Under the pieces are notes generated by a model. It made no database searches and had not been told where the DNA came from. It saw only the letters and a program-made list of their open reading frames with translations. Positions 11,192-29,062 of a stretch of 29,221 nt of DNA are shown here, piece after piece (position 1 is the first letter of the stretch; each line of letters starts with the position of its first letter). The position numbers were made by a program, and so were the translations under genes. This DNA is from a virus: IMG/VR virus record IMGVR_UViG_3300034119_000450, positions 1 to 29,221 of that record; one strand, given 5' to 3'.

Positions 11192-11588
11192 GCTAAAAAC
11201 TTGTGATGGGTGTAATCAAGAAAAGCCCATTTGGAAGAGTAGTGGAACCGGGGGATTAAAGCTATGTAAAAACTGCTGGAGTTGCCACAAAAGCGGAGAT
11301 GCTGAACAGAAACCAACAAACACAATCCCCCGTGTTTCTGCTAAAAGAGCTAAGAAAGATGCTGAGTATGTAAAACTAAGACAAAGATATCTTACTGATA
11401 ATCAGTTATGTGTAATTAAAGTTGCCGGTTGTACTAATGGTGCCACTGACATACACCACACATTTGCTGGAAGTAATAGAGATGCTTTTTACTTAGTTCA
11501 AAGTACTTGGAAAGCAGTTTGTAGAAACTGTCATGATTATATTCATGCTAATCCTGCAGAAGCTAGAACTATGGAATGGTTAAAATAA
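11181..11588 (+). CDS. NinG-like HNH nuclease with zinc finger, 135 aa
   Basis: ATG at 11181. The N-terminal CDGC and CKNCWSC motifs form a zinc site. A basic middle ([20 protein letters not shown]) leads to the HNH region: a C....C pair at CVIKVAGC, then [32 protein letters not shown]. The IHH, the CRNC.D.IH end and the Cys-rich start match small phage HNH proteins related to lambda NinG/Rap, which act in recombination or cut DNA. It lies directly before the transcription-factor-like gene and may cut recombination intermediates or host DNA. Confidence 0.7.
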
Positions 11589-11593
11589 AAACT

Positions 11594-12487
11594 ATGACAG
11601 AAGAATTAAAAATATTACATGAAAAAATACCTGAGTCAACTCCTAGAACTTTAAAACAAATATTTACTAATAAAAAGCTTTGTAAAGAAATACTTAAAAG
11701 AGATATTATTTCTGAAAAACAGCTTGTTACTGAGTATAATATTCCTTTAAGTTATCTTAAAGGATTGAAGTCTAGAAATGTTATCAGTTATTTTAGTACA
11801 AGAGGAGAACTTAATGTCTCTAAAAAAGGATCTAAGTATTATTATTTCTTAGATGAGGTACAAAATTTAATGGGTTATAATATAAAATATAATTCAAGTT
11901 TTGTGTTCCGGTATAACTTAATGAACAGAGTTATTTTAGAATTATCTAAAGAACTTAATCATGACAAGCACACGAGAGTACTTAAAATGTTTCTCAAAGA
12001 TAACAAATCACTAGAAGAGCTTGCTGATATGTTTGATATGAGCCGTGAAAGAGTTACTCAGATATTAACTAAAAGTGCCAATAGGGTTATTTATTTTACA
12101 GCAAGACAGTTTAGAACAGAGGAGCTTGATAGAGAGAGAATATCTCTTTTAAGTGAAAATGAATTACTAAAGAGTCAGAATACACAGTTATATAATAAGT
12201 TCTTAAGAGATAAAGAAAATCAGATAACCAAAGAATTTAATTCTAAACTGCATGTTCAACATTTTCTTAAGCATAGCTATGATATTAAAGATTTAAAGAT
12301 GAGTTACTTGGACTTTGCTTTATCTGTAAGAACATTAAACTGTCTTAAACTAGCTGATATACTCACTCTTGAAGATTTGTTAGTATACAAAAAATCTGAC
12401 TTAATGAAGTTCAGAAACTTTGGTAAGAAATCATTAGATGAACTCTGTTATTGGTTAGAAGATAAGTACAATTGGGTGCTTGAGTAA
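11594..12487 (+). CDS. Transcription regulator: sigma region-4-like HTH fused to RNAP alpha-CTD, 297 aa
   Basis: ATG at 11594 is preferred; an ATG at 11576 overlaps the HNH gene. Residues about 40-90 look like a first helix-turn-helix/wing ([20 protein letters not shown]). About 138-165 carry a sigma-70 region 4.2-like HTH ([20 protein letters not shown]), followed by a coiled-coil linker ([20 protein letters not shown]). About 236-297 match the RNA polymerase alpha C-terminal domain: [20 protein letters not shown], then [13 protein letters not shown]. The alpha-CTD contacts UP-element DNA, and region 4 contacts the -35 box and the beta flap. A single protein with both suggests a phage factor redirecting host polymerase to middle or late promoters. 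That role is inference. Confidence 0.75.
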
Positions 12488-13912: not shown

Positions 13913-15016
13913 ATGATAAAAGACCGACAAGATGTACAAATGGAAGCTCTAGCTGCTACTGATGGTAAGCAGAAATCTTCTGTGGTTTTAGGTACAGGGG
14001 TCGGGAAGACCCTTGTAGGCCTAACTCATATGGATAGAAACACTACACCTTTGATGAAATGTCTTGTTGTGGCACCTAAGAAAGCTATATTTCAATCCTG
14101 GAAAGATGATGCTGTTAAGTTTGACAAGCATCATCTTCTAGGTAGAATAGTATTTACTACATATCTCAGTTTAAATAAGCATAATCCTAAAGATTATGAT
14201 ATTGTATACTTAGATGAGATGCATAGTTTGCTAGATAGCCACCGGGGATTTCTTCAGTTGTATAAGGGTAAAATCTTAGGTTTAACTGGTACTCCTCCTA
14301 AAAGAGGTTATTCAGAGAAAGGTAAGTTAGTTAATGAGTTCTGTCCAGTAGTATATACATTCAAAGCAGATGATGCAGTAGAGAATGGAATACTAAATGA
14401 TTATCAGATTATAGTGCATGAGCTTAGATTGAGTCAAGAGAAGAATTATCAAGTTACTATGAAGACCAAAAGTTATATGACAGATGAAGAATCTAATTAT
14501 ATTTATTGGTCTAGAAGAATTGATGTTGGTGGAGGAGGTATGAACATGCACATGGTCCGGGTAATGAGGATGAAAGCTATGATGGAGTATCCAACAAAAG
14601 AAAAGTATGCTAAGTTGTTACTAGATGACATAGACAGTAAGTGTATTTTATTTGCTAATACACAAGCACAAGCTGATAAATTGTGTCTGGATAGTTATCA
14701 TAGCAACAATCCTAAATCTGAAGAGAACTTAATAAAGTTTAAGTCTGGAGAAATTACCAAACTTTCTACTGTAATGCAGTTGAATGAGGGTGTTAATATA
14801 CCTAATCTAAAACAAGGTATTATTATGCATGGATATGGTAATGAAAGAAAGGCTGCTCAGAGGATTGGTAGGTTGCTCCGGTTAAATCCAGATGACAAAG
14901 CTATAGTACATATTCTATGTTATATGGACACAGTGGATGAGAAATGGGTAAAAGAAGCATTAGATGGATTTGACCAGACTAAAATTGTATGGAAAAATTT
15001 TAATGTGAATTTATAA
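13913..15016 (+). CDS. Superfamily 2 DNA/RNA helicase, 367 aa
   Basis: ATG at 13913. Motifs in order: Q-like start (IKDRQDVQMEAL), motif I GTGVGKT (Walker A, near residue 28), motif Ia VVAPKKA, motif II DEMH (DExH, near residue 104), motif III TGTPP, motif V TVMQLNEGVNIPNL, motif VI AAQRIGRLLRL. The length is near the minimum for a two-RecA-domain SF2 enzyme without accessory domains. Such phage helicases (UvsW- or RecG-like in role) remodel forks and recombination intermediates. Lies directly upstream of clpS. Confidence 0.9.
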   Translation: MIKDRQDVQMEALAATDGKQKSSVVLGTGVGKTLVGLTHMDRNTTPLMKCLVVAPKKAIFQSWKDDAVKFDKHHLLGRIVFTTYLSLNKHNPKDYDIVYLDEMHSLLDSHRGFLQLYKGKILGLTGTPPKRGYSEKGKLVNEFCPVVYTFKADDAVENGILNDYQIIVHELRLSQEKNYQVTMKTKSYMTDEESNYIYWSRRIDVGGGGMNMHMVRVMRMKAMMEYPTKEKYAKLLLDDIDSKCILFANTQAQADKLCLDSYHSNNPKSEENLIKFKSGEITKLSTVMQLNEGVNIPNLKQGIIMHGYGNERKAAQRIGRLLRLNPDDKAIVHILCYMDTVDEKWVKEALDGFDQTKIVWKNFNVNL

Positions 15017-15033
15017 TTTAGTATCTTAATGGT

Positions 15034-15288
15034 ATGGAAGAGCATAAAACACATAAGATTGTAATTTACAATGATGATGTAAATTCATATGAGTATATCA
15101 TGGCTAGCTTGATTAGGTTCTGTAAACATGAGCCTATTCAAGCTGAGCAATGTGCTATCTTAGCACACAATAGAGGAAAGTGCACTGTAAAAACCGGTGA
15201 TTTTATGGATATGTTTGAATTAAAGAATACTTTTGATAACTTAGACATTAAATCAGAAATAGAAGAATATGCAAGTGATATGCATTAA
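15034..15288 (+). CDS. clpS: ClpS N-degron adaptor homologue with very short N-terminal extension
   Basis: ClpS binds proteins with N-terminal Leu, Phe, Tyr or Trp and hands them to ClpAP. The 84 residues align over the whole ClpS core: KIVIYNDDVNSYEYIMASLI, EPIQAEQCAILAHNRGKC, then TVKTGDF. The binding residues N13, D14 and H45 are present at the spacing of E. coli N34, D35 and H66. VNSYEYI resembles the Bacteroidota type (VNTF..VI). Only about nine residues precede the first strand, against about 29 in E. coli, and an in-frame stop four codons upstream rules out an extended start. E. coli ClpS needs that extension to deliver substrates, so this copy may bind without delivering, acting as an inhibitor or decoy. 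Confidence 0.9.
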   Translation: MEEHKTHKIVIYNDDVNSYEYIMASLIRFCKHEPIQAEQCAILAHNRGKCTVKTGDFMDMFELKNTFDNLDIKSEIEEYASDMH

Positions 15289-15550
15289 TGCCGGTAACAA
15301 ACCCAAAAGAATCTCACCATATGAATGGTTAGAAGAGGGTGTAATCTATACAGTAGTGGAAGTAGCCAGAATGAGTTTACAACAAAACAGATATGGCTAC
15401 AGACTAAAAGAAGTTCAGTTGTCTGAACAATCATTTCCTTATGAGTATTATGGTGCTGAAAGATTCATTGCACTAGAACATTTAGCTCAAGCAGCTAAAG
15501 AATCAGAAAAAGTATCTGAACCTCAAACAGCAGATTTAGATTTAGTTTAA
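15269..15550 (+). CDS. Conserved small phage protein, 93 aa
   Basis: ATG at 15269, overlapping clpS by 20 bases. The protein starts MQVICINAGNKPKRISPYEW, then LEEGVIYTVVEVARM, YGYRLKEVQLSEQSFPYEYY and GAERFIALEHLAQA. The order (VICIN.G, a short insert, EG.IYTV.EV, GY.LKEV.L, Y.A.RFI) is a recurrent phage small beta-barrel of unknown role. Its tail (KESEKVSEPQTADLDLV) is disordered and acidic. Coupling to clpS is positional only. Confidence 0.75.
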   Translation: MQVICINAGNKPKRISPYEWLEEGVIYTVVEVARMSLQQNRYGYRLKEVQLSEQSFPYEYYGAERFIALEHLAQAAKESEKVSEPQTADLDLV

Positions 15551-17496: not shown

Positions 17497-18366
17497 ATGT
17501 CTTTAGTAGAAAAAGTTATTAGAAAGTCTATGATAATTAGACCTTCCGGACGGAGTACTGACTTTATTTCACCAAGTTTTGGACATGGTTGTCTTTATAA
17601 TTGTAGTTACTGCTACATGAAAAGACACAAACCGGAAGGACTTTCTGTAGCTACTAATACTATGGATATCCTAACAGAGATTAATTCACATGTGTGGTTT
17701 GCTGATGTTGAGAAGCCAAATCAGACTGGAGACTTTATTACTTATGATATCTCATGCAATGAAGACTTTGCTCTACATGCTAAGTATCATGAATGGGAAA
17801 GAATATTTGAGTTCTTTAGAGATCATCCACTTGCTATGGGTTCATTTGCTACTAAGTATGTAAATAAGGACTTTCTTAAATTTAATCCAGAAGGTAAGAT
17901 TAGAATAAGATTTAGTATAATGCCTCCAATATATAGGGAGAAATTAGAACCTCAGACAACTTTAATTAGCGAAAGAATATTAGCAGTACAAGAGTTTCTT
18001 GACGCAGGTTATGAAGTACATTTAAACTTTAGCCCTGTTATTGTACATGATAACTGGCTTGATATGTACAAGGCAATGTTTGAAGGTATTGCTTCATTGG
18101 CTCAAAGACAAGGATGGAATGATGATAGAGTCAAAGCTGAAGTAATCTTTTTAACTCATAATGAGGAAAAACATAAATATAATTTAGCACAGAGCCTCAC
18201 AGGTGAGCATCTGTTATGGGTACCTAAAATACAGGAAGGAAAAGTATCACAGTATGGTGGAAAAAACATTAGGTATGAGCATAATAGGAAAGCAGATTAT
18301 ATTAAACAGTTTGTTGAGTTGCATGATGAGATAATACCTTGGAACACAATCCGTTATATTTTTTAG
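17497..18366 (+). CDS. Radical SAM enzyme, spore-photoproduct-lyase-like, 289 aa
   Basis: ATG at 17497, one base after the previous stop. The radical SAM cluster motif C32-x3-C36-x2-C39 lies in SPSFGHGCLYNCSYCYMKRH, preceded by RPSGRSTDFISP as in SPL-like enzymes. The rest follows an SPL-like barrel: FITYDISCNEDFALH, MGSFATKYVNKDFLKF, IRIRFSIMPP, YEVHLNFSPVIVHDNWLDMY and AEVIFLTHN. SPL-family enzymes split UV-made thymine spore photoproduct using SAM and a [4Fe-4S] cluster. In a phage of an anaerobic host, a direct DNA-lesion-repair role is plausible, but another thymine- or DNA-linked reaction is possible. Confidence 0.8.
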   Translation: MSLVEKVIRKSMIIRPSGRSTDFISPSFGHGCLYNCSYCYMKRHKPEGLSVATNTMDILTEINSHVWFADVEKPNQTGDFITYDISCNEDFALHAKYHEWERIFEFFRDHPLAMGSFATKYVNKDFLKFNPEGKIRIRFSIMPPIYREKLEPQTTLISERILAVQEFLDAGYEVHLNFSPVIVHDNWLDMYKAMFEGIASLAQRQGWNDDRVKAEVIFLTHNEEKHKYNLAQSLTGEHLLWVPKIQEGKVSQYGGKNIRYEHNRKADYIKQFVELHDEIIPWNTIRYIF

Positions 18367-20321: not shown

Positions 20322-21035
20322 ATGAAACAAAAACTAGATCTAGAAGAGATTAAAGAAAAATTGTATGCTAGATTAGAGCCTTCAGGATGGGCAGTTAAAC
20401 TTAGAAGCTTTATCTATAGTAGTGACTTTGATAATATCATTACACAGCTAGCAAGATTATCCATGGACGGTAAGAGATTTACTCCTACACTAAAGCAAAT
20501 GTTTAGAGCTTTTGAAGAATGTCCTGTTAATGAACTTAAGGTAGTTATAGTAGGACAAGATCCATATCCTCAGATTGGAGTAGCAGATGGTGTTGCATTT
20601 AGTTGTGGTAATACAATGGAATTACAACCTAGTTTAAGCTATATGTTGGATGAGATAAATAGAACTGTTTATAAGGGTCATCCCGGAAGTTTAGATGTAG
20701 ATTTAACCAGATGGTCAAATCAAGGTATTCTTTTACTTAATACTGCTCTGACAACTACAGTTGGTAAGATTGGTCAGCATTATGCTTTATGGAAACCTTT
20801 TATGGCATATCTGTTTGATTACTTAACATGGAATGAGTCCGGGATTGTTTATGTTTATATGGGTAAACAAGCTAAGGAATGGTCAGAAGCTGTTAATGAT
20901 AACAATTATAAGTTCTTTGTTACTCATCCGGCCAGTGCAGCATATGCTAATCAAGCAAGATGGGATTCAGATAATGTATTTGTAAAAGTTAATGAAGTTG
21001 TAGAAAGACAGTTTAACACAAAAATTACTTGGTAA
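20322..21035 (+). CDS. ung: Uracil-DNA glycosylase, family 1
   Basis: This enzyme removes uracil from DNA, starting base-excision repair. ATG at 20322; 237 residues, normal for Ung. Motif A, GQDPYP (79-84, with the catalytic Asp at 80; Ung usually has GQDPYH), is followed by GVADGVAFSC (uracil pocket), LLLNTALTTT (motif with the binding Asn) and THPASAAYANQARW (motif B, His 202). All key parts are present. Ung genes are common in crAss-like phages. It lies immediately upstream of the DnaB-type helicase block. Confidence 0.9.
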   Translation: MKQKLDLEEIKEKLYARLEPSGWAVKLRSFIYSSDFDNIITQLARLSMDGKRFTPTLKQMFRAFEECPVNELKVVIVGQDPYPQIGVADGVAFSCGNTMELQPSLSYMLDEINRTVYKGHPGSLDVDLTRWSNQGILLLNTALTTTVGKIGQHYALWKPFMAYLFDYLTWNESGIVYVYMGKQAKEWSEAVNDNNYKFFVTHPASAAYANQARWDSDNVFVKVNEVVERQFNTKITW

Positions 21036-28214: not shown

Positions 28215-28285
28215 TGGATAAAGTTCAAAGTTTAAGTAAAACTAGTAAAGACTTAATGTTGAAACTTATTGTATTTTCTATCTAA
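28214..28285 (+). pseudogene. 5' remnant of a metallopeptidase-like gene cut by the homing endonuclease gene
   Basis: The ATG at 28214 sits in a TAATG junction like the preceding genes. The frame reads MDKVQSLSKTSKDLMLK, then only six more residues (LIVFSI) from inserted DNA before a stop at 28285. SLSKTSKDLML matches SLARTSKTLML at the start of the gene at 29085, whose next residues AEPYYGFF are the true continuation of the family. So the original start was separated from its gene by the 0.8-kb insertion. The endonuclease stop codon falls inside the TTAATG of this remnant. Confidence 0.7.
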
Positions 28286-29062
28286 AAAAATAGTAGCATC
28301 TAAGTAAAGCAAACTAAAAATTTTGTTTATGTTTTGTTTGCCTTGATAAGTTAAAACATGTAATTGAGTAGTCTTGCAGTTTTTAGGATTATATAGTTTA
28401 GTTCTATTAACAGCAAGACTATTTATTAGTATATCTTGTACTTTAATTAAAAAGTCTTTTGGTCCTAACATGCTAAACAAATAATCTTTAGATGTATTAT
28501 TTGCATAAATACAACCATCACCATCAAAGTAACCTCTGATAAAGTGATGTTGTAAATGTTCTGGAACAGTGCATGGAAAACTTAAAGTTGTTCCTTTGTT
28601 TGGATAAAGACCATGTTTAAGTAAGTCTTTTACAAGTTTAGATGAAGTTATTGATAGTTTAGTTTGATTTTGTCTATTTCCTGGTTTATTAATAACTAAT
28701 AATGGACCAGTATAATTAAGATAATTTTTAAACTTTTCTAAAATATTTTTATCCTTTTCTTGTAATGATATGGATATAACTTTATTAGTTACATTACCAT
28801 CTGCATACAGTAGACCAAGATAATAAGCTTTTTCTTCAGTATTTATTTCATTAAAGAAATCTTTATCATGTGTGTATTTTGTAGCAGCTTCAGCTAATGT
28901 TCTAAGTGGTGTTCCAGATTTTTTAATGATTGAATAAATAGTTTGTGGTGTACAATTACATTGTTTTGCTAATGTATAGCATGAATCACCATGAGTATAT
29001 TTATCAATTATTTCTAATTTAGATAAGGGTAATTTATATCCTTTGTTTTGTTTTATAACCAT
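28253..29062 (-). mobile_element. Free-standing LAGLIDADG homing endonuclease gene, 269 aa
   Basis: ATG at 29062. N-terminal about 60 residues contain a resolvase-like HTH (SCYTLAKQCNCTPQTIYSII, then KKSGTPLRTLAEA). The two LAGLIDADG helices are AYYLGLLYADGNV (near residue 80) and HFIRGYFDGDGCI (near 180), about 100 residues apart as in monomeric two-motif enzymes, with a strand-rich saddle after each (VISISLQEKDKNIL, YLFSMLGPKDF). It is encoded against the surrounding operon, has its own Bacteroidota-type promoter and lies between the remnant at 28214 and the restored gene at 29085. It is probably active or recently active. Confidence 0.9.

Follow-up and report, generated by a model that had tools for sequence, protein, structure and literature searches.

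What is known of the N-terminal extension (NTE) of the ClpS adaptor comes mainly from laboratory work on the E. coli protein, of which Hou et al. reportedly studied a truncation series in 2008. A more recent study describes an E. coli NTE that is gripped by the pore loops of ClpA, with delivery inhibited when entry of the NTE is blocked, and a ClpS that hinders N-degron degradation if a mutant ClpA cannot remodel it (PMC9663308). In a second study, ClpS was no longer degraded in vivo once its NTE had been removed (PMC12974527). Phages can carry the gene as well. Several jumbo phages encode ClpS, and one paper proposes delivery to host ClpAP (PMC7824862); in another, ClpS is listed in Atu_ph07 (PMC6102473). 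Among open-licence PMC papers, surveyed by title or opening lines, we found no description of a phage ClpS without this tail.

Here we describe such a protein. The window, by which we mean the whole stretch of 29,221 nucleotides that was analysed (positions 1 to 29,221 of IMG/VR record IMGVR_UViG_3300034119_000450), carries on its + strand, at positions 15034 to 15288, a core-only clpS of 84 codons that is conserved in 53 other loci. That this open reading frame is present and encodes a ClpS, as the original prediction stated, is borne out by its Pfam score (PF02617, 52.2 bits against a curated cut-off of 23) and by its AlphaFold2 model, which was built from a 42-row alignment, has a mean pLDDT of 90.8 and matches solved ClpS structures from M. 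smegmatis, E. coli, Caulobacter, Arabidopsis and Agrobacterium. M. smegmatis ClpS is the best PDB match (9b1p, TM 0.86), and the top matches are all ClpS, with TM values up to 0.87. When the model was compared with viral models by Foldseek, the named matches at E values up to 0.001 were phage ClpS or COG2127 proteins. Among the NCBIfam ClpS equivalog models, the best match to the window protein had an E-value of 2.6e-5 and 24.4 bits, below the cut-off of 143; as the other four proteins compared, a partial host ClpS included, also failed to reach it, this comparison says little about the window ClpS. The window ClpS had no match in PHROGs.

The alignment with E. coli ClpS places an NDD motif (15070 to 15078, + strand) opposite N34-D35-D36 and the window's T6 opposite M27, the first core residue, leaving MEEHK (15034 to 15048, + strand) as a five-codon remnant of the NTE. 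The NTE before the core is thus 5 residues long in the window. In most hosts from our genome-contig scan it has about 19 residues, and in E. coli it has 26. Counted to the N of NDD, the window ClpS has 12 residues and the E. coli protein 33. The original prediction had put the residues before the first strand at about nine and about 29; the difference it saw is right, and its absolute values were slightly off. The AlphaFold2 model places the beginning of the first strand at residue 7, and the protein lacks an NTE long enough to enter an unfoldase channel in the manner of a delivery adaptor.

The position of the start codon is well constrained. An in-frame TAG at 15019 to 15021 (+ strand) caps the N-terminus five codons upstream of the ATG at 15034, which is the sole ATG, GTG or TTG 3′ of it, confirming the claim that a longer start is excluded; the TAG limits the maximum before NDD to 16 residues. 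The next in-frame stop 5′ of the TAG is a TAA at 15001 to 15003. Together these two stops rule out a start-site error in the window ClpS. Reading the TAG as sense, as in a recoded genome, would gain no start codon before the TAA at 15001. We also rejected a frameshift fusion to the upstream helicase, as the helicase stop (15014 to 15016) precedes the TAG at 15019 and the ClpS frame is closed between them. Shortly 5′ of the clpS ATG, a TATATTA- or TTATCTTAA-like string recurs in the window and in many relatives and is a possible promoter or translation signal.

Host ClpS proteins of the Bacteroidota are not equally short. The first host set came from the genome-contig scan, in which 80 of 560 relatives were kept, all labelled Bacteroidota, and 79 of the 80 loci were parsed (L115, with an NDN motif, was left out). 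The outermost ATG in this set lies at least 23 residues before NDD, with a median of 26; in one locus GTG is the only start codon, at 26. The second set was a phylum-wide sample of 99 Bacteroidota genomes, 97 of which have ClpS. All 99 ORFs of this set are open for at least 23 residues 5′ of NDD, with an outermost-ATG median of 34.5; five of the 99 have no in-frame ATG, and L201 and the first set's L087 are one gene. Short ClpS thus numbered 0 of 178 parsed host ORFs (0/79 and 0/99), the typical length being 26 residues before NDD, and the possibility that hosts are equally short, which had been named as a challenge to the original prediction, is ruled out. The NCBIfam model of cellular ClpS, NF000668, covers only 77 positions and starts about 10 before NDD, and short-tailed cellular ClpS may therefore exist outside the Bacteroidota.

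Among viruses, the short form is widespread. Two viral-contig scans yielded 53 short relatives beyond the window and two long ones, L077 and L078. ClpS is short in all 54 loci of the window's group, each with a conserved ATG 11 to 13 residues before NDD. No other in-frame upstream start occurs in 28 of these loci, the window among them; the other 26 have an in-frame ATG, GTG or TTG further up, not shared across the group, from which a longer protein is possible. A viral scan with a long-tailed query confirmed 450 candidate ClpS stretches, indicating that ClpS is common in these viruses, and all 80 of its loci, which were ranked against the long query and so biased to long forms, have at least 23 residues before NDD. 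To offset this bias we ran a scan with a core-only query, which gave 39 short and 41 long forms among 80 loci. A first genome scan returned no relatives, and a scan with the Vibrio phage ClpS as query returned no viral relatives.

The surroundings of the gene are also conserved. Directly upstream in the window lies a helicase gene (ResIII/Helicase_C; 13913 to 15016, + strand; assigned by Pfam and PHROG), and the 3′ end of clpS is overlapped by a gene for a 93-residue protein without a Pfam match (15269 to 15550, + strand). The order helicase, clpS, 93-residue gene is fixed among the short-form relatives. The helicase is upstream of clpS in 55 of 55 loci (53 short and 2 long), at a distance of about 1.2 kb in L043 and L052, and the 93-residue gene follows clpS in 54 of the 55 (L054 ends there), overlapping its end in 50 of the 54. 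Long-tailed sisters such as L283 carry the same helicase immediately 5′ of clpS, whose start lies one base beyond the helicase stop codon. A seemingly conserved C-terminal signal in ClpS, roughly E-[SG]-x-[LM]-[HY], was dropped because in 50 of 54 loci these codons also hold the start of the 93-residue gene, the overlap being the simpler cause. L032 and L036 have about 750 extra bases between clpS and the 93-residue gene, resembling an insertion at the overlap. Elsewhere, the window encodes a protein combining sigma-70 region 4 with an RNA polymerase alpha C-terminal domain (11576 to 12487; PF04545, PF03118), a spore-photoproduct-lyase-like radical SAM protein that is near clpS in many relatives (17497 to 18366; PF20903), a uracil-DNA glycosylase superfamily protein matching the unknown-function phrog_12143 (20322 to 21035) and, on the strand opposite to the clpS region, a LAGLIDADG-type homing-endonuclease-like gene (28253 to 29062, − strand).

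The phylogenies point to one event. A quick, unrooted tree of the helicase, which serves as an independent marker, contains long branches and was built after identical and short rows had been dropped, separates 71 short rows from 24 long rows by a single branch with SH-aLRT support of 100. An equally quick, unrooted ClpS tree, made after the same kind of row removal and covering only the first short set, shows the same split with support of 96. As all parsed hosts and the other Bacteroidota-type viral forms are long, loss is the natural direction even on unrooted trees, and we conclude that the NTE was probably lost once in this phage lineage. The short gene has since been maintained. Across the 31 non-identical phage sequences that are exactly 84 codons long, median dN/dS is 0.23 (366 of 465 pairs), and it is 0.13 between the window and its nearest relative; short clpS is under purifying selection. 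Conservation of the short form, its single origin on the trees and this selection argue that it is no sequencing or start-site accident.

We compared the degron pocket with the contacts given for E. coli ClpS in PMC12493166, namely N34, D36 and H66 together with hydrophobic positions, M40, V43 and V65 among them. The window retains N13, D14, D15 and H45, equivalent to N34, D35, D36 and H66; His45 (15166 to 15168, + strand) is the counterpart of the residue for which the same paper gives the alpha-amino contact. The original prediction that the pocket is kept holds for these residues and fails for positions 40, 43 and 65, where the window differs from host ClpS (F40Y, V43I, V65A). Hosts mostly have F40, V43 and V or I at 65, with F at position 40 in 80 of 80 rows of the genome-contig scan and 95 of 99 rows of the phylum sample.

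Within the window's group, the N34 and D35 equivalents are invariant (54/54 loci), D36 is kept in 39 and replaced in 15, and H66 is kept in 44, with D in seven and N in three. Position 40 is Y in 37 loci, F in 13 and H in four, and both V43 to I and V65 to A are found in 52 of 54. At the position of the K84 salt bridge, most phages have F or L, and hosts are variable there too. These tallies come from a single alignment, which cannot be relied on in its C-terminal part (position 99). The changes at positions 40, 43 and 65, together with loss of H66 in 10 of 54 loci, suggest that substrate binding may be altered or gone in some members. We dropped a coupling of pocket change to tail loss because the core-only scan gave short forms that resemble hosts at positions 40 and 66: F40 and H66 are kept in all 80 of its viral loci, including the 39 short ones. 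The clade-specific pocket changes hold only for the first short set, the window's group. Tail loss is therefore wider than pocket change, the pocket having been reshaped in a subset that includes the window.

The machinery with which a short ClpS might engage is probably that of a Bacteroidota host. The window helicase matches 77 phage records, 29 of them from Flavobacterium phages and 29 from Bacteroides phages; the hosts of these viruses are probably Bacteroidota, an assignment that for the window rests on neighbouring genes. We found neither ClpP nor an AAA_2 unfoldase in 13 contigs of the short group (40 to 123 kb, possibly incomplete), so any action of ClpS is probably exerted through host machinery. 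ClpP and AAA_2 are both present in three 635-kb phages, whose ClpS is long-tailed. The contig of the long-tailed L077 yielded neither, and tail length is therefore not simply tied to owning the protease.

On the host side, Clp_N proteins occur in 20 of 20 Bacteroidota genomes. Four of them were compared with NCBIfam: none passed the ClpA equivalog cut-off, two passed that for ClpB and one of the remaining two has a UVR motif, which we take to be a mark of ClpC. The host partner is probably a ClpC-type unfoldase rather than ClpA, and the ClpA mechanism of E. coli may not carry over. We found no established role for the NTE with a ClpC-type unfoldase in the literature, and regulation by ClpS and ClpC1 in M. 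tuberculosis is unlike that of ClpA (PMC6274998).

With these results in hand, our preferred reading, held tentatively and at somewhat less than even odds, is that the core-only phage ClpS may act as a non-delivering decoy of the N-degron pathway. The phage core would dock on the host Clp unfoldase and bind N-degron proteins, at least in those members with a canonical pocket, and would offer no tail for the unfoldase to pull. By analogy with the E. coli protein, clients would be withheld, and full-length host ClpS would be out-competed, damping the host N-degron pathway during infection; as a second benefit, a tail-less adaptor should itself escape degradation. It is possible, and we advance this a little more cautiously still, that a large lineage of Bacteroidota phages captured a ClpS and, by removing the tail on which the unfoldase pulls, made an anti-adaptor of it. 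The decoy reading is weakened by the fact that the E. coli evidence concerns ClpA while the one host studied in detail is ClpC-type, and it fits less well those members with an altered pocket, as in the window's subgroup, or without the alpha-amino-binding His (10/54).

Ranked close behind the decoy is a tail-less adaptor that still works, docking and proximity being enough with host ClpC for chosen host or phage proteins to be sent to the host protease. We consider this somewhat unlikely, though it draws on several observations: the fold, NDD and the majority of pocket residues are conserved and under selection, the V43I, V65A and F40Y changes of the window's group would fit a changed client list, the host unfoldase looks ClpC-type, and a role as hijacking adaptor has been proposed for the ClpS of jumbo phages (PMC7824862). 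It has to contend with the need for tail entry in E. coli delivery (PMC9663308) and with the at least 23 residues before NDD in all parsed hosts and in 80 of 80 viral ClpS of the long-query scan, which suggest that the tail matters in these hosts.

If instead the core served for docking alone, it would occupy the N-domain of host ClpC or another partner and alter activity on other clients, with N-degrons left unused. In favour of this account, H66 has given way to D or N in 10 of the 54 loci and D36 has been replaced in 15 of the 54; the also short ClpS of Vibrio phage 2.275.O has D at H66, and Leptospira ClpS1, with D at H66 and Y at M40, still binds ClpA and inhibits its ATPase (PMC12493166). 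The presence of F40 and H66 in all 39 short loci of the core-only scan and of N34 and D35 in 54 of 54 suggests, however, that most members still use the pocket, and we judge a docking-only module improbable. That the NTE was trimmed neutrally from a decaying host-derived copy might be imagined for so small a gene, the NTE being poorly conserved in sequence generally (PMC9663308), but low dN/dS, intact frames and a gene order that is fixed in relatives down to about 50% identity make such decay highly improbable.

In these phages, evolution itself has made an NTE deletion and kept it across a lineage, and the tailed sister phages provide matched natural pairs. If the short protein is an inhibitor, phages gain from blocking N-degron proteolysis, and the part of that pathway in infection or defence becomes testable; should it deliver instead, the tail does not have its accepted role in ClpC-type hosts. 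Either outcome is informative.

Among known ClpS proteins, Bacteroidota host forms such as that of Flavobacterium (L114) share with the window protein the fold family, the NDD motif and the QAEQC helix, at 34 to 45% identity over the host rows of alignment A3. Before NDD they have 23 residues or more, typically 26, rather than 12, and in the pocket mostly F40, V43 and V/I65 where the window has Y, I and A. The long-tailed ClpS of related phages (L283 to L362, and the 635-kb LR756504, LR745206 and LR756502) are likewise of the Bacteroidota type, and in some of them the same helicase precedes clpS; they differ in having kept the tail in 80 of 80 cases and, in the 635-kb phages, in the accompanying ClpP and AAA_2. 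E. coli ClpS shares the fold, NDD and H66, and differs by its 26-residue NTE, M40 and its ClpA partner. Leptospira ClpS1 resembles the window in its Y at M40 and some of the window's relatives in its D at H66, but its NTE, unstructured and about 22 residues long, has been kept, and its partner is ClpA (PMC12493166).

The ClpS of proteobacterial jumbo phages (PA5oct, Phosso, Atu_ph07) are phage-encoded too, but have about 25 to 27 residues before the NDD equivalent from the annotated start; tails are of normal length in Phosso, PA5oct, MIJ3 and Atu_ph07. The ClpS-like proteins of Erwinia phage Kaldavass (L278) and Cronobacter phage GAP32 (L279) have their domains behind a long extra N-terminal region, and both have lost NDD, GAP32 seemingly lacking the His as well. 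The ClpS-like protein of Vibrio phage 2.275.O (AUS02627.1; L277, 592 to 948) is also short, with 12 residues before NDD and no other in-frame start. It differs from the window's in its E. coli-type core, in having D at H66 and in its C-terminal tail, which is long; it is apparently an independent, parallel case. Phage-encoded ClpS is thus already known, and it is the tail-less form that is new.
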